Below are positions 2,486-41,751 of a stretch of DNA of 64,000 nucleotides, piece after piece (positions within the stretch are counted from its first letter, which is position 1; every line of letters begins with the position of its first letter). Source of the stretch: Branchiostoma floridae (lineage: Eukaryota > Chordata > Leptocardii > Amphioxiformes > Branchiostomatidae); assembly GCF_000003815.2 (NCBI RefSeq), contig NC_049984.1, positions 3,164,878 to 3,228,877 on the forward strand. Direction: 5' to 3'. The notes beneath the pieces are model-generated. The model searched no databases, had not been told where the DNA came from, and saw only the letters and a list, made by a program, of their open reading frames with translations. The position numbers and the translations under genes are program-made.

Positions 2486-5400
2486 TTATCGAAATTTTGT
2501 GGCAACTAATATAATAAACATGATAATAACTATGACAGCCAGTACCAGGATCAGCAGCATTTTTCTGTTCTTTTTCTGGTATTTCTCCGCCTGTAAAGTA
2601 TGAAAAAAACAATCACATAGGTGAGTTGATGCAGATATCCATGAAACCCCCATCACAAAGTTGACAGACTTTGGCCACATTTGTTGATCGTCAGAAAGCT
2701 GCAGAATCTAAATTTAAAAAAAAATCGCCAGAGGCTTAAGCATACTCTTCGGGTGAAAATCAAACTTTTATGGACCTAAAAACAATCTTAAATAGTCATG
2801 CAATGGTCAAATGGCCTAATTATTGTCCGTTTATCCCCAAAAATTAAATGAAAACTTCTTTAAAGAATTGGACAGATTCTAATAATTCTTTTATGATAGT
2901 AGAAATCGTTTCTCTCACCTTTTGTAATTGTTGTAGCCCAGCATCAACTTTTGTAGCAGTATGCTCGATGTTGTAGTCTATTCTGTCCAACACTGTGCCC
3001 TGTCAGAAATGGAAATAATGTTACTTAAAGACAAATCAGAAATCTCTACAACTACAGATCACTTCTGGACATTTCAAGTGACATACATCACTCTTATTCA
3101 TCAGTATCAATAGAAAGGTAACATTTGCAAGCAAATACTTAATCTCTTCACATGGTCTACCCATAGAAAATACTGCTCTGTTTATTACCTCCATGAAATG
3201 TCATGGAGGTTATATTTTCTGTTATGTGTCTCTGTCTGTGTACAAGATTACTCAAGAATGGCTGGATGGATTGGTTTCATACTTGTTGTGTTGGTAGAGT
3301 GTGATGAAAGCTCGAATCGATGAGATTTTGGGTGCCGTATCTGTCGTTATAATCGATGTAATAATATCAGAAATCACCCCTATATCTGCGATATATTGGA
3401 ACAGGCATCGTGCTTTAAGTGTTTGTTAATGGGCTTAGCTCAAAGCAGATAGTGAGGTGATTTGTATGACAGCTGTTTGGGGAACCCCGAGTTTTTTTGA
3501 ATATGATAATTAGTTTTATTTTGTCTGCTTAGGATATCAAGGAGATGTGAAGCGTAAGTATAATTGTAAGAAGTTGAGGTACATTTAACGGTAATGCTTA
3601 ACAGGTATGGATATCTCACATACTGTACTGCTGATTTGAGTGACATGGTGATTAAAATGCCATTAGGTCCTCTCATCTTAGATGGGTTGGGTGTCAGAAG
3701 TTTTATGGGCGATACAGATGTTCTGATTTCGTTACGATAAGGGACAGTTGTTAGTTGTCTCTTTTGTAGCCAATGGTAATTGTTTTTTAGCAGACGGGGT
3801 TGGCGCCAAGTATTCATCTTACAGTTGGTGTAGGGCTGTCAGAGGAAAGTGTGCATCTCGTTTTTGTACCATGTGAACAGCTGATGTTATGACATATTGG
3901 TGGAAAATCAAATCAGCATCTGACTAAAGTTGGCCACATGCCTTCTTCTTTCTGAGTTTCCCAACTTCCTCCCACCACACCGCTCTGAGGCACATAGTCG
4001 AACCTCAATACTGCTGACAACCGTAGACAGTTTAAATGTCAAACATCAAGCTTAAGGAACACCACGCTACCACATGTCGACCTCATAAACGCACATTACA
4101 CAATTAAGTGTCACATTTTAATAATTACTAATCAGATGGACATCCTCTGTGTCATTAAATAAATACACCACTACTTTCCCATAACATTTATAACCATTAC
4201 TCTCAAATACAACCGACTATAAACATACATACCATCCACAAAAAAGCAATAAATATTTCATGGAGATATGAGGTCCCCGAACTCTAGTTCCTAGTATTTT
4301 AACACATTCATCTACACAATCATGTATGTGGTGACCCAGCTGTCCTACCACTTGCTACATCATGTAATTTAACACCAGTAGATGTCTGCCAGTTTACCTG
4401 TAACCATGGTGACAGATGTCCGGTCTAGGTCATTGACCTTATTTGTTTACAGACGGGAAAGATGAAGAAACAGGGCAATAACAATATTATGTTAACTTGA
4501 AAGTTCATCTGGGTTGGTAGAAGTCATTCTTGAAATAGTTGAACTGTAATTTCCAACACAAAAATTGGACTCACCCCAATTTTCGACTGCACAGCATCAT
4601 TCCTTGACAAAAACTGATGCTGTGCAGTCGAAAATTGAGGTCCAATTCTTATGTCGGAAATTACAGATCAACTATTTCAAGAACAATATTACGACTGTAT
4701 GTTTCACTTCTGTGAAGGTAAACTTAAATACCAACAGATAGAAATAACGTCTCTGACCTGTTCGACGACTATCTGTGCCAGATCTCTGAAGATCTCGTTG
4801 AGATCTGAGATGGATTGCACGATCTTGTTGATCTCCCGCTCCCTCTCCTCCACAACCTCCGAGTTCTCATCAACCATCTGGATCTGGGCTGGCGTGAACC
4901 CCTGGGACAGAGAGGGGGAATGTGAGGCAGTGTGCTCCGGGACAGAGAGGGGAATGTCAGGCAGTGTGCTCTGGGACAGAGAGGGGAATGTCAGGCAGTG
5001 TGCTCCGGGACAGAGAGGTTAAAAGTAAAGGTCTCACTCATGCGTTATATCTTGACATTGTGAGCAATGTACAAATACGTGGTTTACATGGGCATGTTCA
5101 TAATAAACCTACAAGCCATTCATTCTATGTTGAGCATGTTTACCTTTATCATTTTAGAAATTGCAGAAAACCTCATACCACACAATCCCGGTGTGTGGCA
5201 ATTACGACCTGTACTTAGCTACACCCTAGAAGAGGCAATGCCCACTGCTGGCGTACGACTGCACCACTCAAAACCCAGGTCTGAGCACCTCTGCCCCAGC
5301 GCTTGCTTCCAAGAATTACCTGCTTATTTCTTAAGTTACAATACAAACATGCTTTCACCAGATTGAGGTTTGAGATCAGTTCCACAACCTAAAAGGGAAT

Positions 5401-8400
5401 TTCTCACCGCTATAACTATATAGTATAAGCACACCATGGTTTGCTCTTTGTGTCGGTACTCTTTCAGGATACCCACTTTTTAGGGCACTCACCTTATCAT
5501 AGTAGTCATCCTTTAGAAGTGAAGCAAAGAAAGAGGAAGACAGATTTTATAGACATTAGTAATGAATGAATTAGTATCGAAAGTGTTGGGAAAGACATCA
5601 AGGTGTGCAGTCTAACTAGGGTGAGCCCGCTGGACAGAGCTGCTTGGAAGCGTAGTGTGAAGACTAGCCAACTAAAACAAGCCAGCCCGTGTAAGAGATC
5701 CCAGCAGCTGTATAGTCAATTACTGGATACTACTACTACTACCTACTACTAGTTATTGGTGTGAATAGGATAGAATAAAACTACTAGTTTACTTCAAGTA
5801 ACCTACCCTGTCGTACAGCTCATCCACTGCCACCTCCTCCTCTGTCATGAGTGAGCTGCCTGACGTGATCCCGGGCTCGAAAAACTGTCTGGACCGCTCC
5901 TCTCTGTTCTTCAATCCTGGGGAGCAAATAGGCACAGCTCAGTGTATGCAATGTCATAATGTGGGTAGAGTTGCTCCTCTACATATGTGCTGTAATATTA
6001 TGTGTAAATGACTTGTATTGTAAACACTAGAAACAGCGAAAGGACAAATACATCAGCCTGATATCAATACATGTACTATAAATCTATACCGGGGCAACGG
6101 CCAAGAGGGTATAATGTTTGCCCTGTATTTGACGGTTCATGAGTTTGATTCCCGGCCGAGTCATACCAAAGACTTTAAAAATGTTACATGCTGCTTTCTC
6201 TGGTTAGCACTCAGCATTCGGGAAATACATGTAATATGGAAGTTGAACACACACCACTACCAGTGGACTAACCCCCTGCTGTAGTGACTGCACAAAAGTT
6301 GTGAGGCCCAGAGTTACTGAAACATACATGTATGGTGAGATGGCATATACCCTAATACTGAAAATGGCTACCCAAAGTGATTCTGGGTACTACGACAAAT
6401 GTACAAGGGTTTGAAGGAATGAACAAACTCACTTCTGAGATATGCGGACTGTATGTACAAGGTTTAGAACCAATGAACACACTAACTTCTGAGATAGGCA
6501 GAATGAATGAACCAACTCACTTCTGAGATACACAGACTGCCCCTTCCTAAACTGTATGTACAAGGTTTAGAACCAATGAACACACTCACTTCTGAGATAG
6601 GCAGACTGAATGAACCAACTCACTTCTGAGATAGGCTGACTGCCCCTTCCTAAACTGTATGTACAAGGTTTAGAATGAATGAACACACTAACTTCTGAGA
6701 TAGGCTGACTGCCCCTTCCTAAACTGTATGTACAAGGTTTAGAACCAATGAACACACTCACTTCTGAGATAGGCAGACTGCCCCTTCCTAAACTGTATGT
6801 ACAAGGTTTAGAACCAATGAACACACTCACTTCTGAGATAGGCAGACTGCCCCTTCCTAAACTGTATGTACAAGGTTTAGAACCAATGAACACACTAACT
6901 TCTGAGATAGGCAGACTGAATGAACCAACTCACTTCTGAGATTGGCAGACTGCCCCTTCCTAAACTGTATGTACAAGGTTTAGAACCAATGAACACACTA
7001 ACTTCTGAGATAGGCAGACTGAATGAACCAACTCACTTCTGAGATTGGCAGACTGCCCCTTCCTAAACTGTATGTACAAGGTTTAGAACCAATGAACACA
7101 CTCACTTCTGAGATAGGCGGACTGCCCCTTCCTAAACTGTATGTACAAGGTTTAGAACCAATGAACACACTTACTTCTGAGATAGGCAGACTGAATGAAC
7201 CAACTCACTTCTGAGATAGGCGGACTGCCCCTTCCTAAACTGTATGTACAAGGTTTAGAATGAATGAACACACTAACTTCTGAGATAGGCAGACTGCCCC
7301 TTCCTAAACTGTATGTACAAGGTTTAGAACCAATGAACACACTAACTTCTGAGATAGGCTGACTGCCCCTTCCTGAACTGTATGTACAAGGTTTAGAACC
7401 AATGAACACACTAACTTCTGAGATAGGCTGACTGCCCCTTCCTAAACTGTATGTACAAGGTTTAGAATGATGAACACACTTACTTCTGAGATAGGCTGAC
7501 TGCCCCTTCCTAAACTGTATGTACAAGGTTTAGAACCAATGAACACACTAACTTCTGAGATAGGCTGACTGCCCCTTCCTAAACTGTATGTACAAGGTTT
7601 AGAATGATGAACACACTCACTTCTGAGATAGGCTGACTGCCCCTTCCTAAACTGTATGTACAAGGTTTAGAATGATGAACACACTTACTTCTGAGATAGG
7701 CTGACTGCCCCTTCCTAAACTGTATGTACAAGGTTTAGAACCAATGAACACACTAACTTCTGAGATAGGCAGACTGCCCCTTCCTAAACTGTATGTACAA
7801 GGTTTAGAACCAATGAACACACTAACTTCTGAGATAGGCAGACTGCCCCTTCCTAAACTGTATGTACAAGGTTTAGAATGATGAACACACTAACTTCTGA
7901 GAGTGACTGTATGTACAAGGTTTAGAACCAATTAACACACTACAGGGCTCGAAATACTGGGGTTTTGTGCACCCATGTGCACCCAAAATTAGAGCTGTGC
8001 ACCCAATTTATTTCTGTGGTGCACCTTTATTTCATAGGCTTATGTATGTTAAGATGTCAGTATACTAAGTAAACACCATATTCTTGACATCTATGTGTTA
8101 GAAAGAAATTATAATGACTGTCATCGTACTTCCGATTTCTGATTCAAATTACTAATTTAGTAGGTTTGCAATTAGGTTATTCTGATATTCTACTTTATTT
8201 TATGTGGTGCACCCAAAAATATTTTGGTGCACCCAATTTTCTAGGTTGGGTGCACCAGTGCACAGTGCACCTATTCCCAAAAATGAATTTCGAGCCCTGC
8301 ACTTACTTCTGAGGTACGCGGACTGCCCCTTCCTGAACTGTATGGAGAGATCCTGCAGGTTGCTGGCGTGGGAGGACATGATGTTCTTGGTGACCCTCTG

Positions 8401-11400
8401 CTCCTGCGTGGACGCGTACCGACTCTTGTTCCCGATGTTCTGGATGGCCCGCTGACATCTGTGGAACATCTAGAGGAAGACAAGGCTTAGCGTTAAAGTG
8501 TGTTGGGTATCAGTAAACTTAAAGCCTGGGTACCACCTGTGTAGTAGTTGGCTCCAGGCTTTTAGCCAGGCATGCGTCAACGTCATCTTGACGTACTTTT
8601 CTTAGAATAACAAGAAATTTTATGCCCCTGGACGCCCTTACACTGGGGAGAAAATTGTCTGACATTGATAAGCATGAAATTCTGATTGACCAGGGATGCT
8701 ACCAGGTAATCTGTGGTCACAGTCTTCTACTGTGACCTCTGGAACAGTATTTTTGCCTCTTGGGATACCTAAGAATGCACTTTTTAAACTTAAAATCATC
8801 AAAAACTCTGCACCATGGAAGGTGGATGCCCCCAGAACCCCCTACAATAGTCACTTACCGCGACTCACCAATAAGTTTGGACTCCCTATTATAAAATCCT
8901 AGCTAAAAGCCTGGTTGGCTCCTATGTTTGCTTCTGCTGTCTGCGGAACTGTGTATTCAAATCTTTTGGTGGTAACGTCAGTTAATGAGCGAAATAAGGA
9001 ATGGATTCTGGAGCGCTCGTCTGATGACAACAGGCCCTCCTGCAAGTGGAGGGAGGGCATTTCGGTGTACCAATATAATTTGAGACTTTATGCGAGACTT
9101 TTTCAAAGAAAATCTATCAGGCACAATACTTATTCCCTGAGTGATTACCTGAGAAATAATCTCGATGGCATGTTAAGGAAAGCCCCCTAACCCACCTGAG
9201 TGATTTCCTGAGTGATAATCTCGATGGCATGTTCCTCCTCCATGGAATCGTCCAGTGTGGGTCTGTTCATCTGTTTGTCATGCAGGACTGACAGCTCCTT
9301 CACTGAGAGGGGCAGAATGGAAAATCTTTTGATTATCAATTATTCATCAACCCTGTGCTCAAAATACTCTTTTCAGACAGGCTGCCCAGGCAGCAACCTG
9401 AGTCAAAAGCCAGGCACTTCCAAGTTATTACTTCTTTTTCAGCTATTTATCCATTGACTTTTCTTCCCCTTGCATGTAACTCCTTTTGTTTTATCAAAAA
9501 ATAAACACAAAAGCTTATGCGCATACATATAGGTGGGGGAAAAGTGGTGTTCCAACTGCAAAATTTCAGGTTGTGCACTGAGCTACCTGGATTTAGAACT
9601 AAGTTGCGCCAAGCAAAATGTGGTTGCATTTGCACGTGGGTATTTTGAGCACTGTTAACCTAACATGAGAAATAGCTCCCAAAAAAACATGAGAAAAATT
9701 AATCAAACTCCTTACAACTATGCAAGGTTTTTAAAATCTGTTTTCTTACTTTTTTGCCTAATCTTGGTAATCTCATAGCTGACATCTTCCACACCATCCA
9801 CCCTGGAAAATAACATGGGAGAAAATTTTATTACAACAACGTTGGTAACAGTTAGGGGTGGGTACTGGCACAAAGTGGTTTTTCTCCTTGGATCAGTCCA
9901 AAAAAAACGGACCAGATAAAAATCTGTGGACCAGATTTTGGGCCGAGTAGAAAATGACCGGAATATATTGGCAAGGATATAAATGTTTTGGCGATTGCTG
10001 GGTCAAGAAAATAACAAAAGCGAAGTAGAATAGAACTTATAGTCATTTTCTACAGTCAAACTTAGAGTTTACATGAAGATTTTAAAACATGATTTATGGG
10101 CGTACACTGTAATCCAACATAGATGACATCAAATGAAATGCTGGTGTTCTAGTACAGTAGACAAATATGTAGTACAGATGTAAGGTTGATTATATATATA
10201 TACAGTAGAAGCCATTTGATTGTACAGCCTATTCACCAATGTATTTCATGCATTTATCTGGCTGGTGCAATAATGTAAAGTTATCTGGCTGGACCGCACT
10301 GGTTTAGGATTTGGGGATTCCGTGCAGTTAGAGAAGTGTGCGGTAATCCGTTGTGCAATTAACTGGCTTCTACTGTATAAATTTTTGTTGTTACCAGTCT
10401 GGAGGAAAGGAGCTCTTGTGCACCCCGATGGAAGCGTCAGGGTCGGTGGAGATACCAGACACCAGCGCCATCCTGTCATCGGGAACCTGGGGGGAGGGGG
10501 GCACAGACAAACATGCATGCAGACGTGCCATCAGACTGTGATTGTCTAAAAGATTTGTACATAACAAAGTAGGTAGACCAACTCTAGCCTGGGTACCATA
10601 CTCCGTAGTGACCACTGGCTCAATACCTTTCATGGTTAGCAAGCACTTCCTGTACTACTGCCCAAGGTATGAGAGCAGCAGACACAGAATGTACAACGAG
10701 GTGGACAACATATACCAAGAACTCAGTACACGGGAGAAAGAGAGAAGGCTGGACATAGTGACGCTAGCAGGGATGAGAGAAGATCTGGGAGAAGAAACAA
10801 ACAAAAAGATGTACAAGGCATTCTCAAAGTATATAGAAGACACAGGGAGATTTGCCGGGGAGGACTAATAGGTTACTAACTTACTATACACGAATGTGCA
10901 AAGCACCAGAGGTCAAGCACCAAGGAGGAACAATCACATGAGAAGCACCTAGATGGAAATAGTACCTGGAGCTCACGTCTAGCGAAGAAATAGACGTTAA
11001 GCAGGGACAACAACAACAACAACAATAGCAAGCTAAAGTATTGAGTCAGCAGTTATTATGGAGGATTGTAGTCAGACTAGAGTCTAGAAGATTGATTCTG
11101 GGATGAAAACATTTCTGTATCTGAAACACACTATACACACACACATTTAAGTAATACACAAAAAAATTGTGTCAGATGAAAGAGACGAGGCAAACAATGA
11201 AATCTACTCTACTCTTAGTCTTATGCAAATATACTAATAATCACATAACAAAAACAAACATTAACTTCCACACAACATGCAACAGCACACGTTTAGAAGC
11301 TGAGCCTACAATGTACTAGTAAAAGCGAGCAGTGCAAAAAATTTCCAACAGTAGGCATTACCTATTTGTGTAAAATCTTCAATAAATTAAATAATTTGAC

Positions 11401-11900
11401 AGGGGAACATGTAGAAATCTTTGGGGTATTTTTAAAACCTGAGATGATAGTGCCATAGAACGAATAAATCAAATCAATGCGTCATTTCCGTCTGTGCTAC
11501 GTAAGACAGGTTTTACTCATTAGCGTCAGGGCTATTAAAAACTCATGAATAACATCGTGTGTATTAAATCCTTGATGAGACCTCAACTTCAAGTGAACTA
11601 CATGCGTTTACATATAACTTCAACACACCTCAAATAATTTTTTGCAGCCCCAGCCACCGCACACTTGCATGAAGATGCAATACAAATTCCAACATCTCTT
11701 CAATTTTGCATCAACAAACACCAGAACCTATGAATATTTTGACCTTTTCTTCCGAACACCGCAGTTTTGTGTAGACTCTCACTCACCGAAACATCATCTG
11801 CTGAAGAACGGGTACTCACTTGCTCGGCGAACATGTGCCTATTCTGCGCGGCGTTATTCCGCATCAGGATAAAAATCTCCGTCAAACTCCGAGTCGCCAT
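2486..11900 (-). CDS. STX16: Syntaxin-16 (Qa-SNARE), complete, 9 coding exons
   Basis: Qa-SNARE of the trans-Golgi/early-endosome fusion machinery (yeast Tlg2 relative); it is anchored by a C-terminal membrane helix. Coding exons, 5' to 3' on the minus strand: 11900-11820, 10486-10395, 9802-9750, 9302-9196, 8469-8307, 5916-5807, 4901-4758, 2999-2919, 2590-2486. All junctions have GT/AG and the phases join to 311 residues (human is about 325). The N-terminus [16 protein letters not shown] matches the family's Vps45-binding N-peptide. Further landmarks are [19 protein letters not shown] with EEEHAIEI, and FHRCQRA of the Habc region, then the SNARE motif ([15 protein letters not shown]) with the zero-layer glutamine at residue 250 (end of exon 7), followed by VLDRIDYN. 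The last exon reads [11 protein letters not shown] and then a hydrophobic helix ending ATKFR. Exons 4, 5 and 7 have tandemly copied splice sites (see findings). Family assignment is very secure. Confidence 0.96.
3186..4285. mobile_element. Possible element with CCTCCATGAAAT hairpin end, STX16 intron 7
   Basis: The left side has a small palindrome (CCTCCATGAAATGTCATGG, then AGG) and the right side has AATATTTCATGGAGATATGAGG, resembling a half of it. No coding region was recognised between. Boundaries are guesses. Confidence 0.3.
4529..4681. repeat. Long intronic hairpin, arms about 70 bp
   Basis: Bases 4529-4599 and 4615-4681 are inverted copies with few mismatches (both read CTTGAAATAGTTGA... 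and end ...ACTGCACAGCATCA on opposite strands), separated by a 15-bp loop. The hairpin lies in intron 7 of STX16, downstream of exon 7 in the gene's sense. It looks like a fold-back element and would form a long RNA stem if transcribed. Confidence 0.8.
4902..5018. repeat. 34-bp minisatellite at the acceptor of STX16 exon 7
   Basis: The unit GGGACAGAGAGGGGAATGTC plus AGGCAGTGTGCTC(C/T) repeats with starts at about 4904, 4939, 4973 and 5007. On the gene strand the first unit contains the real polypyrimidine tract and acceptor (CCCTCTCTGTCCCAG) of exon 7, so the acceptor region has been tandemly copied into the intron. Confidence 0.85.
6418..7942. repeat. Minisatellite of about 25 units (main period 69 bp) copying the end of STX16 exon 5
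   Basis: Units read ACTTCTGAGATAGGCAGACT, then GCCCCTTCCTAAACTGTATG, then TACAAGGTTTAGAACCAATG and AACACACT. Shorter variants of about 31 bp lack the middle. On the gene strand each full unit carries CATACAGTTTAGGAAGG, then GGCAGTCTGCCTATCTCAGAA and a donor-like GTNAGTG. This is the last roughly 35 bp of exon 5 (coding [11 protein letters not shown]) with its 5' splice site. The array lies just downstream of exon 5, separated only by a transposon inserted at 7943-8299. Because 69 is a multiple of three, spurious open frames run through it. Confidence 0.92.
7943..8299. mobile_element. CAGGGCTCGAAAT-ended element, GTGCACCCA subfamily, copy A
   Basis: It has perfect terminal inverted repeats CAGGGCTCGAAAT / ATTTCGAGCCCTG. 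GTGCACCC motifs recur in both orientations near both ends. It is inserted within the exon-5 minisatellite: the flanks ACACACTA and CACTTACT are array sequence. No exact target duplication is visible. Confidence 0.75.
8555..8913. mobile_element. hAT-like non-autonomous element, STX16 intron 4
   Basis: Ends are CAGGCTTTTAGCCAGG... and ...CCTAGCTAAAAGCCTG, flanked by a perfect 8-bp target duplication GTTGGCTC (8547-8554 and 8914-8921). Eight-base duplications are typical of hAT transposition. Related copies are at 22865 and 42954. Confidence 0.85.
9137..9178. repeat. Copy of the 3' end and donor of STX16 exon 4
   Basis: About 40 bp (CTGAGTGATTACCTGAGAAA, then TAATCTCGATGGCATGTT) repeats the end of exon 4 at 9196-9237 with a few changes, 59 bp downstream on the gene strand. 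The copied exon text would read HAIEIISQ, followed by GTAATC in place of the next exon codons. Confidence 0.75.
9352..9655. mobile_element. Element with GTGCTCAAAATAC ends, STX16 intron 3
   Basis: It starts GTGCTCAAAATAC and ends GTATTTTGAGCAC, with GCAACCTGAGTCAAAAGCCA near the left and TTGCGCCAAGCAAAATGTGG near the right. Similar copies lie at about 30100-30440 (left end degraded) and 31514-31809. The ends resemble those of the CAGGGCTCGAAAT family. Confidence 0.6.
10201..10377. mobile_element. Pogo/Tigger-like MITE, STX16 intron 2
   Basis: It starts TACAGTAGAAGCCATTTGAT and ends AATTAACTGGCTTCTACTGTA less its first base; the TA ends fit Tc1/pogo target use. A clearer copy is at 27002-27179. 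It lies in intron 2 of STX16, next to exon 2. Confidence 0.65.
10560..11030 (+). mobile_element. LINE 3' end with (CAA)n tail, STX16 intron 1
   Basis: A reading frame ending at 10868 includes [20 protein letters not shown] and continues [12 protein letters not shown]...[11 protein letters not shown] before stop. The H(x)n C pattern is the usual C-terminal region of a non-LTR retrotransposon ORF2. After about 150 bp of 3' UTR it ends in ACAACAACAACAACAACAAT. It is antisense to the host gene. Confidence 0.6.
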
Positions 11901-12240
11901 GGTGTTCCAGAGTCTTGGCCAGCAACCGACAAAAATTTGAAGCGATCCGATTCAAAGCAGCTCGTTGAGAGACGTTTTATTGCAAAAATCACTAAATTTT
12001 GCTTCCCACCGACGCCATGTTGGATCTGACACGTATCCCAACAGCCACCAGTAAATCACGTGACGTACCGTCTCGTCCCCAGGATTTCGAGTCACATCTC
12101 CAAGCAGATGCAGCGCGCGACTGATTTCAATAGAGTTTTTCAAGCGTCTTGTATGCCTTTTTCGATGTTCCGCGTTTAAAGCTATTCTCGGGGAGACAGA
12201 TGCTTCCAAAATATTAGACATTACTCTAACGGGTACCTAC
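11901..12240 (-). promoter_or_regulatory. STX16 5' region with CLEAR-like E-box
   Basis: Sequence upstream of the STX16 ATG contains ATCACGTGAC (12055-12064), one mismatch from the lysosomal CLEAR consensus GTCACGTGAC, running into a CRE-like TGACGTA. A CCATGTT motif (12015) lies nearby. Placement 150-165 bp upstream of the start codon fits a TATA-less promoter, but the transcription start is not known. Confidence 0.4.
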
Positions 12241-12445
12241 TGGCTGTCGCTCAAGGTGAATACTCAAGGTGAATACAACTAGAGAGAAGTACAATATGCA
12301 ACGAAGTACACAGCACCTAACATCTGCTTAGAGATATTAAACTGGAAAGTTTCATGAGTTTCCCTAGTGACGTTACTAGTAGTACTTTGGGTCATCACTG
12401 AGTCTCATTATTTAGGTGGCAAACATGTGACTTATTTTCGTAAGA

Positions 12446-12651
12446 TATTGTAAATGCAGAAATGTTCGCGGTGGATTAATGTTCGCGGTTTTCGCGGTGT
12501 CTGACCGTCGCCACTTCACCGCGAATTTAAAACCACCGCGAACATTTTTCTATTATGGTATCAGACTGCAGTCTATGGTGTTACCGTGAACTTAAATCCA
12601 CCGCAAAAAGTCCCTTTTCCAGCTACCGCGAAATTAAATGCATTTACACTA
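12446..12651. mobile_element. Palindromic MITE, TACTGTAAATGCA family, copy B
   Basis: It begins TATTGTAAATGCAGAAATG and ends ATGCATTTACACTA, with GTTCGCGGTGG / CCACCGCGAAC inverted blocks inside. It lies about 550 bp upstream of the STX16 start codon. Confidence 0.7.
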
Positions 12652-16284: not shown

Positions 16285-16532
16285 AACAAGAGAGGACTAG
16301 TCCAGTGTGCTGATTGGTCAGACCAGAATACAGGTGCATACATAATCTGACCAATCGGCATTCTGTTAAAGAGGACAGGACAAGTCCAGGGTGCTGATTG
16401 GTCAGAGCATGTGTTGGGTGCTGACCAATCAGCATCTTCTAATGGTGGACAGGAACTAGTCCAGCATGCTGATTGGTTAGACCATGTTTCAGGTGCACAT
16501 GAATCTGACCAATCAGCATCCTGTTAAGGAGG
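16285..16532. repeat. Three-unit palindromic array with six CCAAT boxes
   Basis: Each unit pairs GCTGATTGGTCAGA with CTGACCAATCAGC in inverted order, joined by spacer text such as AGGACAGGACAAGTCCAG. ATTGG/CCAAT occurs six times in about 250 bp, alternating in orientation. It may be a decayed fold-back repeat or an NF-Y-binding cluster; no adjacent gene start was recognised. Confidence 0.75.
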
Positions 16533-23600: not shown

Positions 23601-26600
23601 ACCTAAATACCCGTACCTTAACAAATTAAATCACTGTTGAACACTACTTTTTGAGACTAAAGATAGGTAAATTCCTAATCAAAGATGACAATTGTGATAA
23701 TCATGCAGTTAAAAATTAAGAAAACTTTGTTTTGAGGTTCAAATATTTAAATCCTCATACAAATATGATAATTTCTCACTAAAGAAGACCATTTGCTACA
23801 TTTATAACTTAGCGTTAATTGATCAAACTTGCTTAGGTACAGGTAAAGGTCCGGACCTGTACCTAAACACGTGTACCTGTACCTGTACTTAAAATTTATC
23901 TAGGTACACAGCTCTAACAGTAAGACTTGGCCTGGAAACACAACAAGGCTTAGAATTTTTTTCCATCCCACTCATTGTTTGGGAGCCCATGTTGTTGATT
24001 TCTTGGAGAAATATGTCACTTTAAGCTTATCAAATATCAGTTTCATGTCATTTTGGGATGGGATAAAATCATTTTTCCTCCTGACAAGCAAATTTCTGTC
24101 CTGGGACAGCCCTGAAACACAATGTCTCACTGCCGGGGGCTGACTGGGCCTCCTCACGGATCTTGTGGCCATTTTACCCAAACTTAAGAGAACCATTCCC
24201 TTTCTTACAGTCACCAATATCTTTATCACTATTAAATACATAGACAACATACATCATTGTTCATCTGTGGGAACTTGAACTCTATTTTTAAGTATGCGTT
24301 AGTAAGTTTAAAGTTGTTGTGAGCTAAACACATTTTAACCACACAAGACTGTCAGGTTTTACATTCAATTATTTCATTCATCATCCATTCATTCATTCAT
24401 TCTTCCATTTGTTTGTTAAATCATTTATTCATTCACTCATTCAGTCACTCACTCAATTGCTCACTCATCCATTCAACCATTGATTTACGTCCATTCATTC
24501 AATGTTGCTTATCATTTCTCTGTATGCATGTATTACAAGGTCAGTTTTCTAAAGCTTTGTTCCATACTACACATACCAGACCAGTACTCTATAACAGTGT
24601 TTTGACACATAAAAAACCGTGCTATAGGGCACCGACCTGGTATTATGTTCAGCAATGATAGACCCCAATACAGACAGCATATTGAATAAAACATTAAGTA
24701 GGAAGAGTGGAGGATTATAATCGCAGCATGGGGGATTGGTACCAGACACGCACCGCATTATGTTTGCTATGTCGAGTGAATAACTGCACCAAACACGCAG
24801 ACAGTGGACTTATCCCGACAGTCATGTTGTACTAAATCTTTCCATCACAAATCCTGATCATTTAAGTTACTGTAAATGCATTTAAGTTCGCTGGGGTTTA
24901 ATTTTGCGGTGGCGGGACAAAGGACTTTTCGCCGTGGTTTTAATTTCGCGGTAACACGTTAGACTGCAGTCTAATACCGTAATAGAAAAATGTTTGCGGT
25001 GGTTTTAAGTTTGCGATGAAGTGGTCACCGCGAAACTGCGAACATTAGTCCACCACAAACATTTCTGCATTTACAGTGTACTCTCCATATCAATAACATA
25101 TTGTTTACTTAGTAGTGTTTTAAGATTTATTGTGCATCCAAGATATAGTAGTAGTCGGAAAAATTACAGTAAGAGGAGCACCGGTGTATTTTTCCGACTA
25201 CTACCATATCTCTGCGACTCAACCTCTGCTTGGAGAGTACAAAGGCCCTGCAGTCATAAAAAATATGGAGCTAGAGGGCGAAATAAAACTAAAAATTGTA
25301 AAATGGTTGGGGTAAAGGTAACGGCTAATCCAAAACATAAAGAAAAAAGTTTTCAGCTTGAAAAAAGTACAAAAACACTATTTTTGTACAGTAACAGCAC
25401 CTGTACCCACACTTTAAGGAGCTTATAATATAAAGGAAAATTTGCTACACCAGAAAGTTGGTGAATGGTTTCATTAATGGTGAAAATTTGCTGAGTGGTA
25501 ATTTTTATTTTTATTTTTTTCCCCAAAAAATAGGAGCGAGCGAATCCGTGAACCAAGAAATTAAATCGGTGTGGCCTTAACAACCCATTCACTGGCCCCG
25601 CATGGCACCCAGACAGGGATTATGTAACAGGCTTTTCTTGGAATCCCATGTTCTCTAATTATGCTGAGCTCCATTCAAACAGTTCAAGCCTTTTCCTGGG
25701 AAACAGTTTGTTGACTGCTATTTCCGGAGTAACTAGAAACACGATCAAACAAATTTGAAAGCCCTCCTTCCAAGAAATGTAAGTTAGTGGCAGACTTCCA
25801 AAGTGAAATATTGCTGTATTACATTAGGCCATGTTGATTTGATTATATGGATGACATACCCGCGCATCAATTCATGACTGTTTCCAAAAATAAAAGTTTT
25901 AAACCATACAGTAAATCGTACAAAGCAGCTTGCAAATAAGCAAATATATGCCATGGATCTAAAAAGAAAAACATATCTGAAAATGAATACTAATGTCATA
26001 ACAGGGCTCGAAATACCACCTGCATATGCAGGTTAGTGCAGGTAAAATTGGAGCTGTGCAGGTATTTCTGGTGTCTACCTGCACCTAACCTGCACTGGTC
26101 CATGTACTGGGTTTTATACATAACTTTCATATGATGTAGGTGTATATGGATTGTTATAAGCTACATTGACTGTTACCACCTATAAAGTGTAAAAGAAAAA
26201 ATAGGAATGGTTCCTGAATAATTTTAGTATTAATCTATTCTTCCTAAATTCAGAGTGGTGCAGGTAATATTTGTCGGGTGCAGGTAATTTTCAATGTTCC
26301 CTGCACCAGTGCAGGTATGCAGAAAAAAGTATTTCGAGCCCTGGGTACACATTCTTGATCTATTGTTCGGTATACTAATATTATTCTGTGTGTTCATTCA
26401 GTATGTTCATCCTTCCTCACCACTTAGATTTCATAACGAAGACAACTTTTTTGTCCAACGTTTTTGTTATTCAAACGACTGCATCAGTTTTGGGGTTCCT
26501 AGAGGATGTCATCCACATAATCAAATCAACATGGCCTTACCAGGAAAGGAGAACTAGCCAAACTTCCGCTGTGCATAATGCAGTTCCAAGAAATTTCACT

Positions 26601-29600
26601 TGATATTGGCAGAGTTCCGATGAAATGAAGTTACATTATCAGGCAAGAGGGAGAAATGAGGGAAAATGCAGTAACACCTCTGGTGGGGGTGCGAGCGTTT
26701 TGGGGAGATCCATTCATGATCAATGAAGGGACCAACACTACAACTGTATGTTTTTAGAAGATTGCAGCTGTGATTATGATCAGAGCTTTTTACTGATTTA
26801 ACCATTTTAAGCATTGCAATCATTCACCAAAGAGAAATAATCAGAACCAGTTTTACCACATTTTCTTGATTAAATTATGCATCCCTGATTTGGGCAAGGG
26901 AGACACTCAAATAATTGCACCCCTTCTCCACCAATCTTGAACACATTTTTATTGTATCAAATTACCTTATATTTATGCACAAACATATATCCATTTCAGT
27001 GTACAGTGGAAGCCAGTTAATTGCACGCCGGATAAACGCACACTTCGGTCAATTGCATGGAATCCCAAAATCCCGTGGCGGTGCGGTCCAACTGGGTAAC
27101 TTCGCATTATCGCACACGCCGGATAATTGCACGGGATTCGCCGGCAAATTGGGTGTGCAATTAAGCGGCTTCCACTGTATTCAACTTTGAAGCACTGACA
27201 AAAACAGTCATAGGTAACGCAGATACCAGATCTACGGGTCTGCTGGTATTCAGCTTGACTTGACTTGCTCTATTTACCACCCAAGAAACAGGAACTGATA
27301 GATTTACGACAAGCAGTTCCACAGGTCACTTGGCTGGTACATGAAGTTTGGGAGCCATTTGGCTTACTTCCTAAAGTCATGCATGGAAAGGCAAGGTAAA
27401 GCATTCTCTAAAGAGGTTTGGTATGGCCAGGCCTGTCTGCAGGACCTAGCAGTCAGTCCCGGGATGGAAATTTGCTTGTCGTGACGGACAGAAATTTCAT
27501 CCCATCTGTACGAGAAAACGGAACTTGATGACATGAAATCGGTGAAAATGTATTTCAAAATGTCCCAAATAATCAATTCTGCTGCAAGATTATTAAGATA
27601 GCTGAAACCTGCCCACATACTATATATAATTGTAATCCATCCAGGGGTTCTTGAGTTATGCTGACTACAAAAATCTGGAAACAAAGACAGACACACACAC
27701 ACACAAACACAGACAGGCACACACACGCACACACACAGACAGACACACACACAAACACAGACATACATACAGATACACACACAAACACAGACAGACAGAT
27801 ACACACACAAACACAGACAGACAGACACAGACAGACAGACAGACACACACACACACACACTATATCTCCATTTTTCACTGAGATAACAAACAAACAAACA
27901 AACAAACCTCTCGCAGTGTACTGATGACCTGATCGTCCTCTGTAGCCATCCCCAGCACAGTTCTGGCCCCCTCTAACACGGCGAGACACACAGACAGGCA
28001 AACACACATCAAACAAACAAACAAACCTCTCCCAGTGTACTGATGACCTGGTCCTCCTCTGTAGCCATCCCCAGCAAAGTTCTGGCCCCCTCTTACACGG
28101 CGAGACACACAGACAGGCAAACACACATCAAACAAACAAACCTCTCCCAGTGTACTGATGACCTGGTCCTCCTCTGTAGCCATCCCCAGCACAGTTCTGG
28201 CCCCCTCTAACACAGCGAGACACACAGACAGGCAAACACACATCAAACAAACAAACAAACCTCTCCCAGTGTACTGATGACCTGATCCTCCTCTGTAGCC
28301 ATCCCCAGCACAGTTCTGGCCCCCTCTAACACGGCGAGACACACAGACAGGCAAACACACATCAAACAAACAAACAAACCTCTCCCCGTGTACTGATGAC
28401 CTGGTCGTCCTCTGTAGCCATCCCCAGCACAGTTCTGGCCCCCTGTAACACGACGAGACACACAGACAGGCAAACACACATCAAACAAACAAACAAACAA
28501 ACCTCTCCCAGTGTACTGATGACCTGATCCTCCTCTGTAGCCATCCCCAGCACAGTTCTGGCCCCCTCTAACACGGCGAGACACACAGACAGGCAAACAC
28601 ACATCAAACAAACAAACAAACAAACAAACCTCTCCCAGTGTAATGATGACCTGGTCCTCCTCTGTAGCCATCCCCAGCACAGTTCTGGCCCCCTCTAACA
28701 CGGCGAGACACACAGACAGGCAAACACAAACAAACAAACAAACAAACCTCTCCCAGGGTACTGATGACCTGGTCCTCCTCTGTAGCCATCCCCAGCACAG
28801 TTCTGGCCCCCTCTAACACGGCGAGGTAAGAGAAGCGTAGCTGGTCTGGAGTCTGGATCAGACCCATCCGGTACTGTCTCATCTCCAGCAGTAGCTGCCG
28901 CATGTTCAGACTGTTCAGGTCGCGCGTCTTGTCCAGCTGGGTAGGGATTTCAAGACTCGTGGTTATGACATTAGGACATTCAGGTGGCCGCAACTCTAGT
29001 TTAAAGTATTTTCAATGTATTTTTGTTTTTTCTAAACTTTAACTAACATGTCACATATTGACTAACATTGTTTTGACCAACTTTGTTTCAGACTCTGTCC
29101 CCCCCAAAAAACTCATCTAAGACATATTTGCCATCATGCATATATATATACATGTATCATTATAAGGCAAAATCAACTCTACACTCTGAGTAGGTATATA
29201 AAAAAAGAGATATATAATTCACAAATAAGAAAAATAAAAAACTCTCTTGACTAGACAAAGAAAGAATGGCACATGACGTTGCCAGCAGAAGCTACAGTTT
29301 GAAAGAATGCACCACTGCTCACCAGTACCAAACACGTGTCCACTAAACAGAAGACTCCCGATCTGCCGATTCCCGCGCTACAGTGCACCACGGGGGGTCC
29401 CACGTCCGACTCCAGCGACCCCGAGTTCCTGACCTCCTGCAGGAAGTGGAGGAAGGCCGCCGGGGATTCTGGGACGCCAAAGTCCGGCCACCGCGTGTAG
29501 TGGAAGTGAAATACTTTTCTGCTCTCGTTGGTCTGGTGGGAACGGAAAAAACTTGTTACCTTCTTTATAATGAGAACAATTTGAAAACAGGTTATGTAAT

Positions 29601-32600
29601 AAACGTATTAACGCTAGTTCACCTTTATCCGCGGGGTAACCTATATCCGTTGTTTTTCCAAACGGGGTATTTAGGCACGTCAAGCTGACGGCTGGTAGTT
29701 TTAGACTGCAATATACTAAAAAAACATTGCAATTTGAAACCAACGTTCGTCGACATGATGTCCCCAAATACCCTGTTTTTAAAAGCAACGGATATAGGTT
29801 ACCCAATGGATAAAGGTGAACTAGTGTTACACAGAAAATTTAAAAAAAAAAGGCCATTTCATGGTAAGATCACTCAATTTTAGATGCCAACAACTTAATA
29901 TGTGATTGTACAATAGTCAAACCTGTGCAAGTGACCACCCCTGAATAAGGTCCAACTGGCCAATGAGTAGTTTTTCCCATTGACGCAAGCATTAAGAATC
30001 CTGTCTGTAGTGACCACCTGTCCACATATACCTGTAGACCAGATTTTACCAGTCTCTCAAATGGTGTTTTGGGGCTAGTGTGACTGCATTTCAAACTCTA
30101 TGCTCGAAGTCCTTTTTTCAGCCAGGTTTCTAATGCGGCAAAGTCAAAAGCCAGGTTGCATCATCAACATTTCAGGGTGCCCCACTTCCAAGTTATTACT
30201 TTCTTCAAATCAGTTACTTATCCATTGTCTTTTCTTCCAGTTAAATGTAACATTTTCTCTAATCAAGAAATAAAAACATTTTTTGTACATATATATATAT
30301 TAAGCTTATGCAGGTAGGTGAAGGAAAAGCAGTGTTCCAACTGCAAAATTTCACATTGCACACTGCACTACCTGGGTTTAGAATTAAGTTGCGCCAAGCA
30401 AAATGTGGTTGCATTTGCAAGTGGGTATTTCGATCACTGTTACAGTGACCACCTGTCCACATTCATGTGGACCAAATTTTACCAATCCCTCCAGTGGTGT
30501 TTTGTGGCTAGTTTGACCCTTAACCTACTGACCTTTAACCTATGCAGCAGGTAGGTCCTGATGGTGAAGTAGGGTCTGACATCCTCCTCCAGCAGCGTGA
30601 CCTTGTACCCTGTCTCCTCAAGGTCAAGTTCGTCCGAGTACCCGTTGACCTCCCCTTGGGGCCAGTACTGAGCACATTTTATCTGAGGGAGTCAATATGA
30701 GAGGGATTTGAAACAATAATGATTGGTCAAGTTCGATCCCCAACCAAGTCATACCGAAGACTTTAAAAACAGTACACGCCGCGTTGTCTTTTACTCAGCA
30801 ATTGAGAAGTAGTAAGACATTACACACCACTAATGGACTAACCACCTTCTGTAGTGACTGTAGTTAGTCTCAACCATGCAGGCACACCCACACACACACA
30901 TACAGTCTCACACTCACACAGACGCACATACACAGACAGACACACACACACAGGTCTGCCTCCAGCATTAAGCTTGTGAAAATACATTTTCATCAGTTTT
31001 ATCAAAAAAATTATTTTTACAAATTTTTTCCTGGTTCAAACAAGTATACATACAGACAAAACACCTTTTTTACACGTACAACCAGAGAGTGGAATAATCT
31101 CCCAGCGTACGTGGCACTCTCGACATCTCTTTCAACTTTTAAATCCAAAGTTTAACTTCTCCAGACTTGGGCAGTAGACCCCATGAAATTTAAAGGCTGC
31201 AGAATATGAGAATAAGAAGTAAACTTCCCTCCTTGGATGGAGGGACGGGTCTTGGGGACAGTCCTACACATACAGACTCAAGAACAAAATAACAGTTACT
31301 CACTGTTCCCTTCTCGATAACCCTGTTCAGCATGACGACTGCTTTTGTGCGCTGCTCCCAAACCATCTCCCAGAAGTGACCTATAGTGGACGGAAGTGGT
31401 CCCTGTAGGCAAACATACATCATGGATTAAACACATGGAGAAGGTTATGTTTGTGTGTATGTATGTGCATCTGTGTGTGCTTGTGGTATGTATGTGTGCG
31501 TGTGTGTGTAAAGTGCTCGAAATACTTTCTTCAGCCTTGTTGCCCAAGCGGCAACCTGAGTCAAAAGCCACTTTGCACCATCAACATTTCAGGTTGGCTA
31601 CCCATTCCAAGTTATTACTTTCTTCAAATCATCTTTTAACTACAAGTACTTGAATCTGTATGTTAAAACAAAGCTTATGCACATACATGTAGGTGGGGGA
31701 AAACTGCAAAATTTTAGGTTGCGCACTGCGCTACCTGGGTTTAAAATAAGTTGCGCCAAGCAAAATGTGGTTGAGTTTGCAAGTGGCCAAATGTGTATTT
31801 TGAGCACTTAAATAATGGTAAACATGGTTGGCAACATTTGTGTGTATGTGTGTGTGTCTTCGTGTGCGTGCTTGTGGTGTGTGACACTGGCACTTTGAAA
31901 ACTTTCCTAGTGGCGCCTTTCTTAATCTTGTTATTTGTTAATATTCAAGAATGGGACCATGACAAATGCAAGACAATTTGAGCCATAAGTGGCAACATTT
32001 TGTCAGCTGATTAGGTGCAGATATACATCATAGTAATAAAAAAACCTGCATGGATCCAATTTTACCTGCTTGTGCTCATAATGCCAACCACATGCAGAGC
32101 TCACTGCCCATTACATTGTATATCACATGTTGTAACACTTCCAGTAAATTCTATTGTTACAAAGCAGCCAGGTTTTCCGCTGATCGACTGTCAGAGAAGC
32201 ATCTTTGCCAACCACATCCGGTCTTTTGTCCAAACAATCGGAGCCTTCAGAACAGAGAATGTGGCATGCATCAAAACATCACATGGCAAGTGCAACGTAG
32301 CCTGGAAAAAACGACTACTTAACATTCTACAGGTGCCAAGAAGGGCTTTGTTGTATCAAACAGACAACCTTGTCTTTTGACTCTTATTTTCACTTCCTAT
32401 TGGACTATATAAGATTTTTCTTCACCTTATTTGCATAATATGAAGTCATTGTGTTTGGTAAGACAAAAAAAAACTGCTCTTTAACATGCAGATCTTGCTC
32501 TGTGTCACTGACGGAGGACAGACCCGATGCTGTCTGTATTGTCTGACCAATTCTTGGCACCCATAGAATGTCACGACTTGTCAGTTTTTCCAGGAAAAAT

Positions 32601-35600
32601 CGTGCCTTGGTTACGCCAGACTTGCCATGTGATGTGATGTCTTGATGCCACATTCTCTCTTCTTGACTTAAGAATTTCCTGAAGGCTGAGATTATTTGAA
32701 CAAAAGGCATGATGTGAATGGAACAAATGTTGCTCAGACAGTCTGTTTTGTGTATGTCAAACATTCATCAACGAACCTAAGTTAAAGCCTCTAGTGTACA
32801 CATTGCCTTTTACAAGAGGTAACCAGGGTGTTCAATTCAAATGGTGGCAAGCAAGAAGGTTGTCACCTTTAGCAAGCTTATTTGTCGTTTAAACCTACAT
32901 TTGTAGTTTACAAATCCAGGTGGCACACTGAGAAACTTAAGGGTATAAACTTAAGGATTTACGTGTGCCCTAAAGATATATGTCTTAACTTTTAAAGGAT
33001 TCAGGTGTGTCATGAAATGAGGTGTGTCTTAGCATTGTCTTAAGGATTCAGGTTTAAGGATTTAGTTATGCCTTCAGGATGCAGGTGTACCTCATGAAAT
33101 TAGGTATATCTTAAAGACTCAGGTGTGTCTTAAGGATTTAAGTGTGCCTTTAAGGCCATGCCAATTGATTTACGTACTTGGTTCTCAAATTTTTGAAAAT
33201 AAAAATACAGCAAGCGGACATCATAAAAGCAACAGGAAGGGAGGAAAACTCGAATATGACCATATTCCAGACTTTATACAACTTGAATATGACGGTATTC
33301 GCTCAATAAAACTCCATTAAACTCCATAAAACCTTGAGTGCACCAAGGCGTAAACTCAGCCCTCAGGCTTTGTTTTTACTATGTTTTTCCAGTTAAGCAT
33401 ATTTTTTTTCTTAAAATCTGAGAACCATCAAATCAAATTGGTGTCCTTCAGGACTGAATCCTTAAAGGTTCAGATGTGTCTTTAAGGATTCAGGCATGTC
33501 TTAAGCTAAGGCCACAACCCGTCGTATGTGCAAATACGTGCTGTCTACATGCCAAAACGTTGGCAATCTTGCGGGATCTGTAAGTGGAAAGTACCACCTC
33601 TGTACAAACTCGTAGGGAATCCGATTTTGGAGCACGCAGACACGCCGTAGAACTTAACGTGCAGGTAAAGCTTTGTGTGCCATTGGGCTGCGGATTCGCC
33701 CCCCGGTACGTGCCAGTACGGGCGACGCGCCTGCCCTGTACAGCCTGAACGTAGAAATATGTGGCCTGCAAAAAAAAAACACGTGCAGACAAATTGCACG
33801 TATGACGGGTTGTGCCCTTAGCTTTAAGGATTCAAATGTGTCTTACCTGTGCGAGAATGTACTGTCTATTTGCCTCTGTTGCCTGTGAATTAGAAAAACA
33901 GACAAGGGTTAACTACCGTGGTCAAAACAGATCCAAATCTCCTGTATGGTTTACCCTTTACCAAGCATGTAAGTTCAATCTGACAACTCGAGCCTGCTTA
34001 ACTCATCACACCCATGCTAACTATGTGTGGCACATTCAACACATTCAACAGAAATAGGGCACAAATTCATGTGACTGCATCTGCAATTGCCCTAATTTTT
34101 GCGTTAGCATGAGGCTTTGAGGTTTCCTATCAAAATATTTGGGGAATAAAAGATCATGATACAACCATAATTCTAGTATGAGAGATTCAAACTTTTTCAC
34201 TGTGCTTGGTATAAATCTTATGAATGTACATGTACATACACACACAGCTATGTTTGCAGTTAGCAAGACAAACATTCACAACAATTTTTGGCAAATATAT
34301 TTCAGCCCTTGTTATAGAACCAAACTAAACTGTCCTAAAGTGCCAAAAAATGTGTGCTTATTTCAAATTTTGGTTGGGGAGGCAGGTATTGTTTCTTGGT
34401 AATTGTGCAATTACGTACCCGAAGGCTAATTGCAAATATGTGTTGTATAGAATGATGATAATAAGTACAGTACAGTGAGATCAACAGGAGATACCTACAT
34501 TGTAGATTAAGGTACCAATGAAGTGAAAAACTAAGCTCTAGAGCTACTTCTGTATATATGGTTTGACTTCTTTGTTGGAGGCAGTGGACACGAACAGTAA
34601 TACAAGTATGAAGTACATGTATGTGGGTTCCCTGATTTTGATAGTGGAGCTGTTCTTTCTTATACGGCTTTATTTTGGTTGGCTGCGCAAACTCATATTC
34701 ATAATTCCCTCGCCTCCCATCAAAGTGTGCTAAGTAACGATTTGACAAACTACCATGAGAGCTAGCCTGAGGGCTATTCAAGAATGATAAGAGTTTGTCG
34801 CAAAATCATTGATCACTATTCTTGGAACTGTTCAGAAAAGAACACACAGTTCTGGGAAATCTACCCCTGGGGAACTGGCATTGGGGTTGTCTCCAAGATC
34901 AGTCCCTCCGTCCAGTGATGGAATTTTGCTTCTTTGTATGGAAAAAAACTACACCCATCCCATCTAAAACTAAAGATTCTTAAATTATTTTCCAAAATTT
35001 TCATAGTGAAATTTTTAACAACAGGCCATCAAACATTAGAGATTAAGTGAGTCTAAGAAAATTTAAGCCCTACATGTAGATATTTTGACAGAATTCTAAG
35101 CAAAATACAGTTCATAGCTTGGGACGCTTTCGGGACGTACTCTGTCTCTTTGTCAACCCGGTAGATCTCATCTTCTCATTTTCTTGCCACATGACGGCAA
35201 ACATTATCAGACTTTGTCACAGCACCGCAAATGACCAACCACGATGCGAGCTGATCAGGACTCCAGGGCTCTAAAAGAATCAATAAAAGTTTTCCACGAA
35301 ATCCTTGACCATTTTACCTGGAACTGTTGAGAACACGACACATGATTCTGGAAAATCTACTTATGGGGAATTGGAATTCCTAGAAGGGACATAAAATGGC
35401 CATTGGGGGTCCCATGTTCATGTTAAGGTATCTCGGTTGCGCAAACTGATATCTACTAACGATCTGTAGTTATTAAGAATTAATTTTTTTTAATTAGATG
35501 AAAACAAACATTTTATAATTACTACAGATCATTAGTAGATATCAATTTGCGCAACACTACGTTTGTAGCTTCCATCATTATGCAACGAAAAACGAAGTTT

Positions 35601-38600
35601 CATTACAGTGGTATGTACCAAAGTGCTGTATTTTGTCATAGAAAAAAATAATATAAGAGGTAATAAAAATGATGACGTCATCAATTTGGCCCCCAAAAAG
35701 TCAGATTTAGAATTCTTTAATGCCCATCCATCAACATTCGTTATGGCTCCATTCTTTCTTAATTCATTAATAAGAAAACAGTGGAAGGTCAAAATACCAA
35801 TTTAGCCAACCGAGATACCTTAAATGGGATGGGTTAGCAACCCCTGCCTGTAACAATACACCCTGCTACAGAAACAGTAAGAAAACTTGTTTTCTAATGT
35901 ACCAGCGGGGACTACAAGGGTCTGAACAAATGAAAGAACAAATGGGGTTTGGCAGTACAGAAGGGGATTACGACTGTTTCTAGCCATTATGGGGGGATGA
36001 AATATTTCAAGGATTTCACACAACAAAGTTTGCTACTTGGGAGGCTTTCGAGATGCCCACAGTCTCTTTTCAACCAGGTAGATAATAATGTATCTTGGAG
36101 TTCTCTTGCAATGTGACAGAGGAAATTAATTATCACATGACAAGACACAGTTTCTGTTTCTTGTTTTGACTCACCTCCACGAGACTTGCATTGATGTAAT
36201 CGTTGTCCCCATCCTGGAGTTGTACCCTGCTGTGGTCGTCTGAAATCACAGAAAACATCACAATTATATAATTCTTAAAACACCAGAATCATTCTGCAAA
36301 TTTAAAAGCTTCTCAGCTTAGACCTAGTTGATGGCACTAAAACATAACAGGTCCAGATTACATATATTCACTATTCAATAAACTTTTCGTCTGAAATCAC
36401 AGAAAACATCACAATATAATTCTTAAAACACCAGAATCATTCTGCAGATTTAAAAGCTTCTCAGCTTTGACCTAGTTAATGGCACTAAAACATAACAGGT
36501 CCAGATTACATATATTCACTTTTCAATAAACTTGCTTTATTTGCTTTTGAAAGGATTTATGCAAGCCGCAGTGCCAGATCTTAAAAAATGTTTACCAAGC
36601 TCACTGTGACTGTGTGACATCATAGACAGGATTTAATTTGATTACATGCCTCATGTGACCTAGAAGGAAATGAACTAATTTCATTTGATAGGTGTAAGGA
36701 AGATGTATTCTGTAGTGTAAATTTTGTGCTACATGTACATATATTTCCACACACTATGTGCAAAATAGGTAAGACCATTCCAATTAAATTTTTTTGTCTC
36801 AGAATCTCTGCACCTTTTTTCATAATTTGAAATTTAAAAAAATGGCCAAGACTCCATTCTACAGTGCTGCCAAACTTTGGTTCAGTTTAAAAAAACACAA
36901 TGTCTGGATCTGGTACTTGACTTCAAATTGCAAAACTAAAAATCATCTAAAACTATAAAGTGGTGAGACAATGACACTAAAATGCAATGGCTAGAACCCT
37001 GCAGAATAGAGAAACAAGGGTATTCTGTTCATGTATGGCTTCTGGAGTTATCCACCTGTTCAACCACGAAAACCACAGACATGACCACAAAAATGCACTT
37101 CTGAAAACATAAACATTCTTGACAAAGGTGATTATCAGGGCTCAAAGCACATGTGAGCACTCAAAATTGGAGCTATGCTGCTGAGTATGCACCTTATCTT
37201 TGCCTGTGGGTGCACGTACTAGTACATGTTTGTCTAGGGTTATGTACATAAAGATACTATTGTTCACTAGTACATCATGTACATTATCATTGGCAATGCC
37301 GAGTGTAAAAAAAAACAACTCTGTTCTATCATTTGTTTGAAATTTTAAAATTAGATGTAGAATTTCAGATTCAATTTCTGAAGAGTGACAGTGAGCTTTG
37401 TATTTAGGTTAGCTGGAATTCTAATTTCCATTACACATATTGAACACAAAACAAAACACAAGCAACTATAGCTAACTTGAAAACTTTTCTGCGGATCTAA
37501 TTTTTCAGAATATGTGCACCAGTGCATTTAATTCCAAAATGCATTTCGAACCCTGATAACAATACAGTGTACATTTTAATTGCTGACACAGGTGTACTTA
37601 CACGGGCTGACGTCCCTGTACCTGTTCCTGAACTTGTTCTCCGGTTTCCGCGCACATTTCAACGTGTGGTTGTGTTCCGCCGCCTCTTGCCGTATACCCT
37701 GTACAAACAACAGCGCACACACTACAGGTCATGTAAGGTCACGGCCACTGACAGGTTGCACTTGAATCCACGATGTAACTTTTAAAAAAAATTTCTGCCC
37801 ACATAAAACAGTATAACCATATTTTCCGCAATACCCCAATTTTTAACCATTTCCAAAAAAAATTTTAAAAATTTTGAAACACACTGTAAATCATACCAAG
37901 CAGCTGTAATTGACCATTTATACCGGATGCTGTAAATTTAAATTGCCAAAATGAATACTATTGTCATATAATGCCAAAGTAAATTACAACTTAAAAGATG
38001 ATGTGAAAGAACAAAAATGAAAATATTGACTAAGCTTGATGGTACTTACACGCGTATGCTGAGGGCCGTTCTTAATAAGTCATGGAAACAACATCCTACC
38101 AAAGAACAGTTGTATGGTAATATTCCCGCCATATCAACCATCATCAGGGAGCGTAGGACCAGATTTGCCGGTCATTGTTTTAGGAACAAAGCAGAGCTTG
38201 CTAGTGAACTCATTCTGTGGAAACCAACACACGGGTATGCACATGCTGGGCGACCTATACTAACATACTAGTACATAGACCAGCTTGCTCGTGATGTGGG
38301 GTTGCGGGTTGAGGACTTAGAGAATGCCATGGGGGACAGAGACGTTTGGAAAGAGAGAGTGGACCTGGTCCGGGCAAGCAGCCCGCGACGATGATGATGA
38401 TGTTTGGTATACTTCACTAAGTTAGCGTGTATAGTCATTTGTTAACCTATTTGACTACTTAGATTTCATACTGAAATCAACTTTTTTTATTCTCACGCTC
38501 ACATCAGTTTTGGGGTTCCCAGAGGATGTCGACCGTATAATCAAAGCAACATAGCCAGGGTTCTCCCCAGAATTTTTTAGTAGAGTGGAGGCCGGAGGGG

Positions 38601-41600: not shown

Positions 41601-41682
41601 TCTTATGTCTTCGCCAAGGCGTTTTTATCAAGGGAGTTTATCCTGGTAGTTTTTGCTGCATGCATGTATGTACGCACACACA

Positions 41683-41751
<69 letters not shown>

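Follow-up and report, generated by a model that had tools for sequence, protein, structure and literature searches.

Mirages, in which an exon-intron boundary is repeated in tandem, have been published in amphioxus for Adh3 and the globins BflGb6 and BflGb9 (PMC3087553), and troponin C and PGBD5 have been added to the list (PMC3902484). In the excerpts of these reports available to us, the copies lie on the donor or the acceptor side, the units measure from tens of bp to ~160 bp, the copies are often imperfect, and the copy next to the exon keeps the coding sequence. Copy number differs among haplotypes, reverse-transcription PCR (RT-PCR) suggests regular splicing (PMC3087553, PMC3902484), and normal mRNA is reported for Adh3 and the globins despite the boundary copies. 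The STX16 gene of Branchiostoma floridae and an adjacent PTPN1/2-type phosphatase gene, both within the 64,000-nt stretch C6:3164878-3228877 (the window, always meaning this whole stretch), carry boundary repeats of this type and are further members of the known amphioxus mirage kind. They differ from the examples in the excerpted reports in their hosts and in the presence of six boundary duplications across a pair of neighbouring genes, and a test against the intron background is added here. Intron gain by tandem genomic duplication in the potato RdRp gene, as excerpted (PMC4974935), likewise involves a duplication bearing splice signals; in contrast, the STX16 and phosphatase copies sit inside existing introns and no new intron is shown. 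A literature search found no genome-wide mirage survey, a weak indication that there is none.

The searched assembly comprises 513 Mb in 431 contigs. Gene models in the window were assembled one exon at a time and checked for an open frame. The STX16 product matches the Pfam SNARE domain (E 2e-20), and the phosphatase product matches PTPN1 chains in the PDB (E 2e-125). Local direct repeats were identified by self-BLAST at shifts up to 600 bp and tandem arrays by Tandem Repeats Finder (TRF), and the features are collected in Table 1. A first-pass annotation, made from the sequence alone, had proposed seven tandem duplications at splice sites of the two genes. Six of these are confirmed at exon edges; in each, the repeat unit spans or abuts the exon-intron boundary, and use of the copy contiguous with the exon leaves the conserved coding sequence unbroken. 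The seventh, a proposed "degenerate array" adjoining the phosphatase exon 4 donor, is not detected as a tandem array by TRF or by self-BLAST of the window. A motif search allowing up to four mismatches in 20 returns four irregularly spaced matches there, with two mismatches each.

The roughly 25-fold repetition proposed for the STX16 exon 5 donor is borne out. Counting the working site there are 26 donors, and GT is present in all 26 (GTTAGT in 11, GTGAGT in 11, GTAAGT in 4); the search string contained the G of this dinucleotide, not the T. A looser recount gives 27 matches, of which the additional one lacks GT, is placed by order in the repeat inserted beside the array, and is judged to be part of that repeat rather than an exon 5 copy. 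The inserted repeat has relatives at 39116-39473 and 63234-63519 (74.5% identity over 381 and 75.2% over 311 aligned columns); one copy of this ~75%-alike interspersed family split the exon 5 array. The exon 4 donor is indeed duplicated, as a 39-nt repeat with 92% identity (9136-9174 and 9195-9233), but the two copies are spaced rather than head to tail and GT is absent at the homologous position of the copy. The fourfold acceptor assigned to exon 7 does consist of four copies of the polypyrimidine tract, but the exon is number 8 when an 18-nt microexon is counted. AG stands at the homologous place in two of these four copies, the working one among them. The first-pass claim of an AG or GT signal in every copy fails at both of these boundaries.

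The three remaining phosphatase duplications are as proposed. At exon 3 the copies are 95% identical, take in merely four exon bases and retain the acceptor in both cases. The exon 8 unit comprises the last 78 nt of the exon, the donor GTTTGT and the start of the intron, with the working exon end at 28748-28825. A recount that did not demand GT finds this weak donor in all eight copies, and the unit length is not divisible by three. At exon 9, 48 nt are repeated with 94% identity at a shift of 179 bp; the copies are again spaced, and both retain the acceptor. A short AG-flanked open frame at 14481-14552, spotted by eye, is a possible alternative 3' terminal exon of this gene.

Table 1. Features of the window (positions are those of the whole stretch)
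Feature	Position	Strand	Description and basis
STX16 gene	2486..11900	-	10 coding exons; 317 aa open frame, stop-free
Copy of 3' end of STX16 exon 4 (exon 9196-9302)	9136..9174	-	self-BLAST, sequence comparison
STX16 exon 5	8307..8469	-	first intron base of working donor is 8306
Interspersed repeat between working exon 5 donor and array	7943..8299	.	~360 bp; BLAST within window
Minisatellite of STX16 exon 5 end and donor	6399..7942	-	25 extra donors; units ~69 and 34 nt
STX16 exon 7, microexon missing from first-pass numbering	5493..5510	-	18 nt; frame and splice sites
Array of polypyrimidine tract and acceptor of STX16 exon 8 (exon 4758-4901)	4902..5018	-	34-nt unit x 3.4
PTPN1/2-type phosphatase gene	20667..45168	-	10 coding exons, open frame
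Array in phosphatase intron 1, away from junctions	40980..41284	.	98 nt x 3; TRF, self-BLAST; counter-example
Tandem duplication at phosphatase exon 3 acceptor (exon 36175-36239)	36236..36533	-	148 nt x 2; TRF, self-BLAST
Four scattered 20-nt motif matches	32995..33845	-	one abuts phosphatase exon 4 donor (exon 33847-33882)
Phosphatase exon 8 donor array	27891..28825	-	119 nt x 7.8; TRF, self-BLAST
Copy of phosphatase exon 9 acceptor and first exon bases (exon 23196-23380)	23542..23589	-	self-BLAST, sequence comparison
Repeat within coding exon of putative NB-ARC gene	52629..52743	+	39 nt x 2.6, unit 13 codons; counter-example

In all likelihood, the boundary structures are minisatellites with a unit that by chance takes in an exon-intron boundary, and neither a function nor a preference for splice sites is needed to account for them. 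Tandem duplications would be frequent in this genome, most likely through replication slippage and unequal exchange. Those within coding exons would be purged by selection, and those in introns or across exon edges would persist; boundary repeats would be tolerated because the spliceosome can presumably use the copy joined to the exon, which still yields a normal mRNA. The arrays would afterwards expand, contract and homogenise, with the exon-adjacent copy left out. The open frames, and an alignment of the phosphatase with PTP1B over residues 1-294 that extends into the first of the exon 8 array copies, show that the conserved protein is continued solely through the copy contiguous with the exon. 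The other copies are most simply neutral minisatellite. Nor do all repeats in the window lie at boundaries: self-BLAST resolves 14 local-repeat clusters, of which six (the three STX16 and three phosphatase cases above) fall at one of the 46 junctions and eight lie away from any junction. Counter-examples include the array in phosphatase intron 1 and the repeat within a coding exon of a putative NB-ARC gene, where the surrounding frame (52514-52837) is free of stops.

The comparison with random positions suggested in the first-pass annotation was run on other genes of the same genome, picked by exon matches and compactness and blind to repeat content. Exon matches were obtained from Pfam searches with Myosin_head, Cpn60_TCP1, Adaptin_N and Kinesin; the rows used were 86 of 142 for myosin, 54 of 60 for Cpn60_TCP1, 21 of 35 for adaptin and 61 of 134 for kinesin, and 46 stretches were merged into 44 independent blocks. 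Exon ends were called from splice-site scores. Ab initio exon prediction was avoided, since it would mistake arrayed exon copies for exons, and calling junctions from paired introns was dropped, as it yielded 40 introns, too few for use. On window exons trimmed by 0-4 codons, with the same few exons reused, the caller was exact in 450/450 donor and 420/450 acceptor trials. Five family matches with in-frame stops, inside the sampled stretches, were left out of the main count and added in a second one. A kinesin stretch (C2:31967300-31972200), noticed through three repeating family matches, was excluded, and a CHD-like stretch was never included. The sample totals 278,738 bp, 41 repeat clusters and 412 called junctions; it represents four gene families, in which several genes are compact or paralogous, with junctions called from sequence.

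No clear junction enrichment over random positions is found in these 44 blocks, with 10 of 412 junctions hit against 7.7 expected (P 0.25; hits in nine blocks). The expectation is 9.2 when exons are barred to repeats; with the tolerance varied between 0 and 20 bp, hits number 10-11 and the expected values run from 7.1 to 9.3. TRF arrays hit five junctions against 3.0 expected at a period of at least 20 (P 0.18) and five against 2.6 at a period of at least 30 (P 0.12). They lie at a CCT acceptor (112 x 3), a myosin donor (58 x 2), a kinesin donor (66 x 1.9) and two adaptin acceptors (46 x 2 and 55 x 4.8). In a simpler point-based comparison limited to the first 20 stretches, repeats contain 3 of the 177 exon ends, 64 of the 2755 random intron points and none of the 95 mid-exon points. 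Over the whole sample a single mid-exon point in 222 lies in a repeat, where equal density would predict ~4, and TRF arrays cover none; together with the exon-contiguous copies, this supports the earlier suggestion that copies at boundaries are tolerated. A 4.4-fold enrichment like that of the window would give 10 or fewer sample hits with P about 1e-6, and the sample excludes a general enrichment of that strength. This comparison, which controls for the intron background and uses genes picked irrespective of repeats, weakens the case for repeats seeking out splice sites.

Two further genes were found through repeating family matches and, being selected for the outcome, stand outside the sample. 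In the excluded kinesin stretch (L045), the acceptor and ~95 nt of exon start are present in three copies, the intron-like part of each ending in TAG, and both extra copies retain CTCC(T/C)GTAG ahead of the copied exon start. The second is an SNF2-family gene (L050, C14:1916700-1920750), which we recognise as CHD-like from its protein. One of its introns, ~1.16 kb long, consists almost wholly of boundary copies: four matched donor-side copies with the working one included, a degenerate fifth recognised by eye, and then four acceptor-side copies, again with the working one. Mirage structures bear on intron growth and possible intron gain.

Several results weigh against a reading in which splice sites are not preferred. 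With each array reduced to one unit and placed randomly, 6 of 46 window junctions are hit against 1.36 expected (P 0.0027, uncorrected, in a window chosen for the pattern). TRF arrays with a period of at least 20 hit three window junctions against 0.61 expected (P 0.024, subject to the same choice), the STX16 exon 5 array being uncounted owing to its inserted repeat. With the bases now covered by arrays as the null, however, the six hits are unremarkable (3.5 expected, P 0.14, same window). The junction hit rate is also higher in the window than in the sample (Fisher P 0.0027). Restoring the five omitted matches to the sample gives 12 of 422 junctions against 8.2 expected (P 0.13; mid-exon points 1/227), every ratio estimate exceeds 1, and the outcome-selected CHD-like gene holds four more repeat clusters in 4 kb, two of them seen at donors of later exons. 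A modest preference for junctions, up to ~2.4-fold (3.9-fold for TRF arrays), may exist. A mutational process that favours exon-intron junctions, for instance through breaks tied to transcription or replication close to the step in base composition at the exon edge, could draw on the window excess, the five TRF arrays and the second count of the sample, and the clustering in the CHD-like gene, but we regard it as unlikely. The 95% interval of the sample junction ratio is 0.6-2.4 (0.5-3.9 for TRF arrays), and the excess depends on the window chosen for it. The window P values are not clean because the window was selected after the pattern had been noticed there, and its excess is not taken as general for the same reason. 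The shared process directed at junctions that the first-pass annotation had envisaged finds no support in either count of the 44 blocks.

It is also improbable that the copies are used, with redundant splice sites or cryptic exons giving alternative transcripts and feeding new introns or exons. Such use would fit the GT present in every STX16 exon 5 donor and the motif retained in the two extra kinesin copies; a model of this type for globins, and the idea of intron gain through amphioxus mirages, are already in print (PMC3087553, as excerpted). Against this, two of the six window duplications have some or all extra copies without a signal at the homologous place, units such as the 119-nt one shift the frame, and the RT-PCR in the same excerpt suggests regular splicing. 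An assembly artefact, in which the assembler built the copies from divergent haplotypes, is highly improbable: PGBD5 copy numbers did vary among assemblies, and a DNA search of this assembly with STX16 exon 5 gave one full-length match, so that no second haplotype was found for comparison, but the copies carry private differences, an inserted repeat interrupts the STX16 exon 5 array, and the PGBD5 repeats were upheld through re-sequencing (PMC3902484, as excerpted).

The origin of neutral boundary minisatellites may be reflected in how the working exon end differs from its copies. The two were compared at six multi-copy boundaries, namely STX16 exon 5 (the 18 of 25 copies that are sufficiently long), phosphatase exon 8, three in the CHD-like gene and one in the kinesin gene. 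Differences that set the working copy apart from every other copy number 11 synonymous, 2 non-synonymous and 1 at an incomplete codon, where random changes would give an expected synonymous share of 21-26%; the outcome-selected kinesin and CHD-like genes contribute nine of these 11 synonymous differences and the window two. Where the consensus of the copies differs from the working one yet some copy matches it, there are 8 synonymous and 2 non-synonymous differences. Variants among the copies are 10 synonymous to 13 non-synonymous (against 11:2, Fisher P 0.033). The two-copy cases, outside the multi-copy count, lack the pattern (STX16 exon 4, 1 synonymous and 2 non-synonymous; phosphatase exon 9, 1 and 1), and adding them gives 13 synonymous to 5 non-synonymous.

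Had the copies evolved as non-coding DNA after separating from the exon, most of their shared changes would be expected to be non-synonymous. One tentative possibility, conceived after seeing these small numbers, is that mirage arrays are young and were seeded by another coding allele through unequal exchange between the highly divergent amphioxus haplotypes; heterozygosity in B. floridae is ~3% (PMC12862219, as excerpted). The exon end of one allele would then adjoin an array grown from another, which would explain the synonymous bias of the working-copy differences, and repeated growth from two sides may build entire introns, as in the CHD-like gene. Alternatively, in cases where the array is old, gradual divergence of the exon by itself could produce the pattern. 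That the working copy departs from its array mainly at synonymous sites offers a testable link from allelic divergence to minisatellite birth.

Two other genes lie on the plus strand of the window. One is GGCT-like, with matches to Pfam AIG2_2 and GGACT. The other is the putative NB-ARC/WD-repeat gene, whose NB-ARC match of 20.2 bits is under the Pfam cut-off of 23.5 and whose WD part was recognised by eye. Its exon 2 (51522-52026) runs into stops at a TTTA repeat at ~51737-51758, for which an unannotated intron, an allele or a pseudogene are possible explanations.

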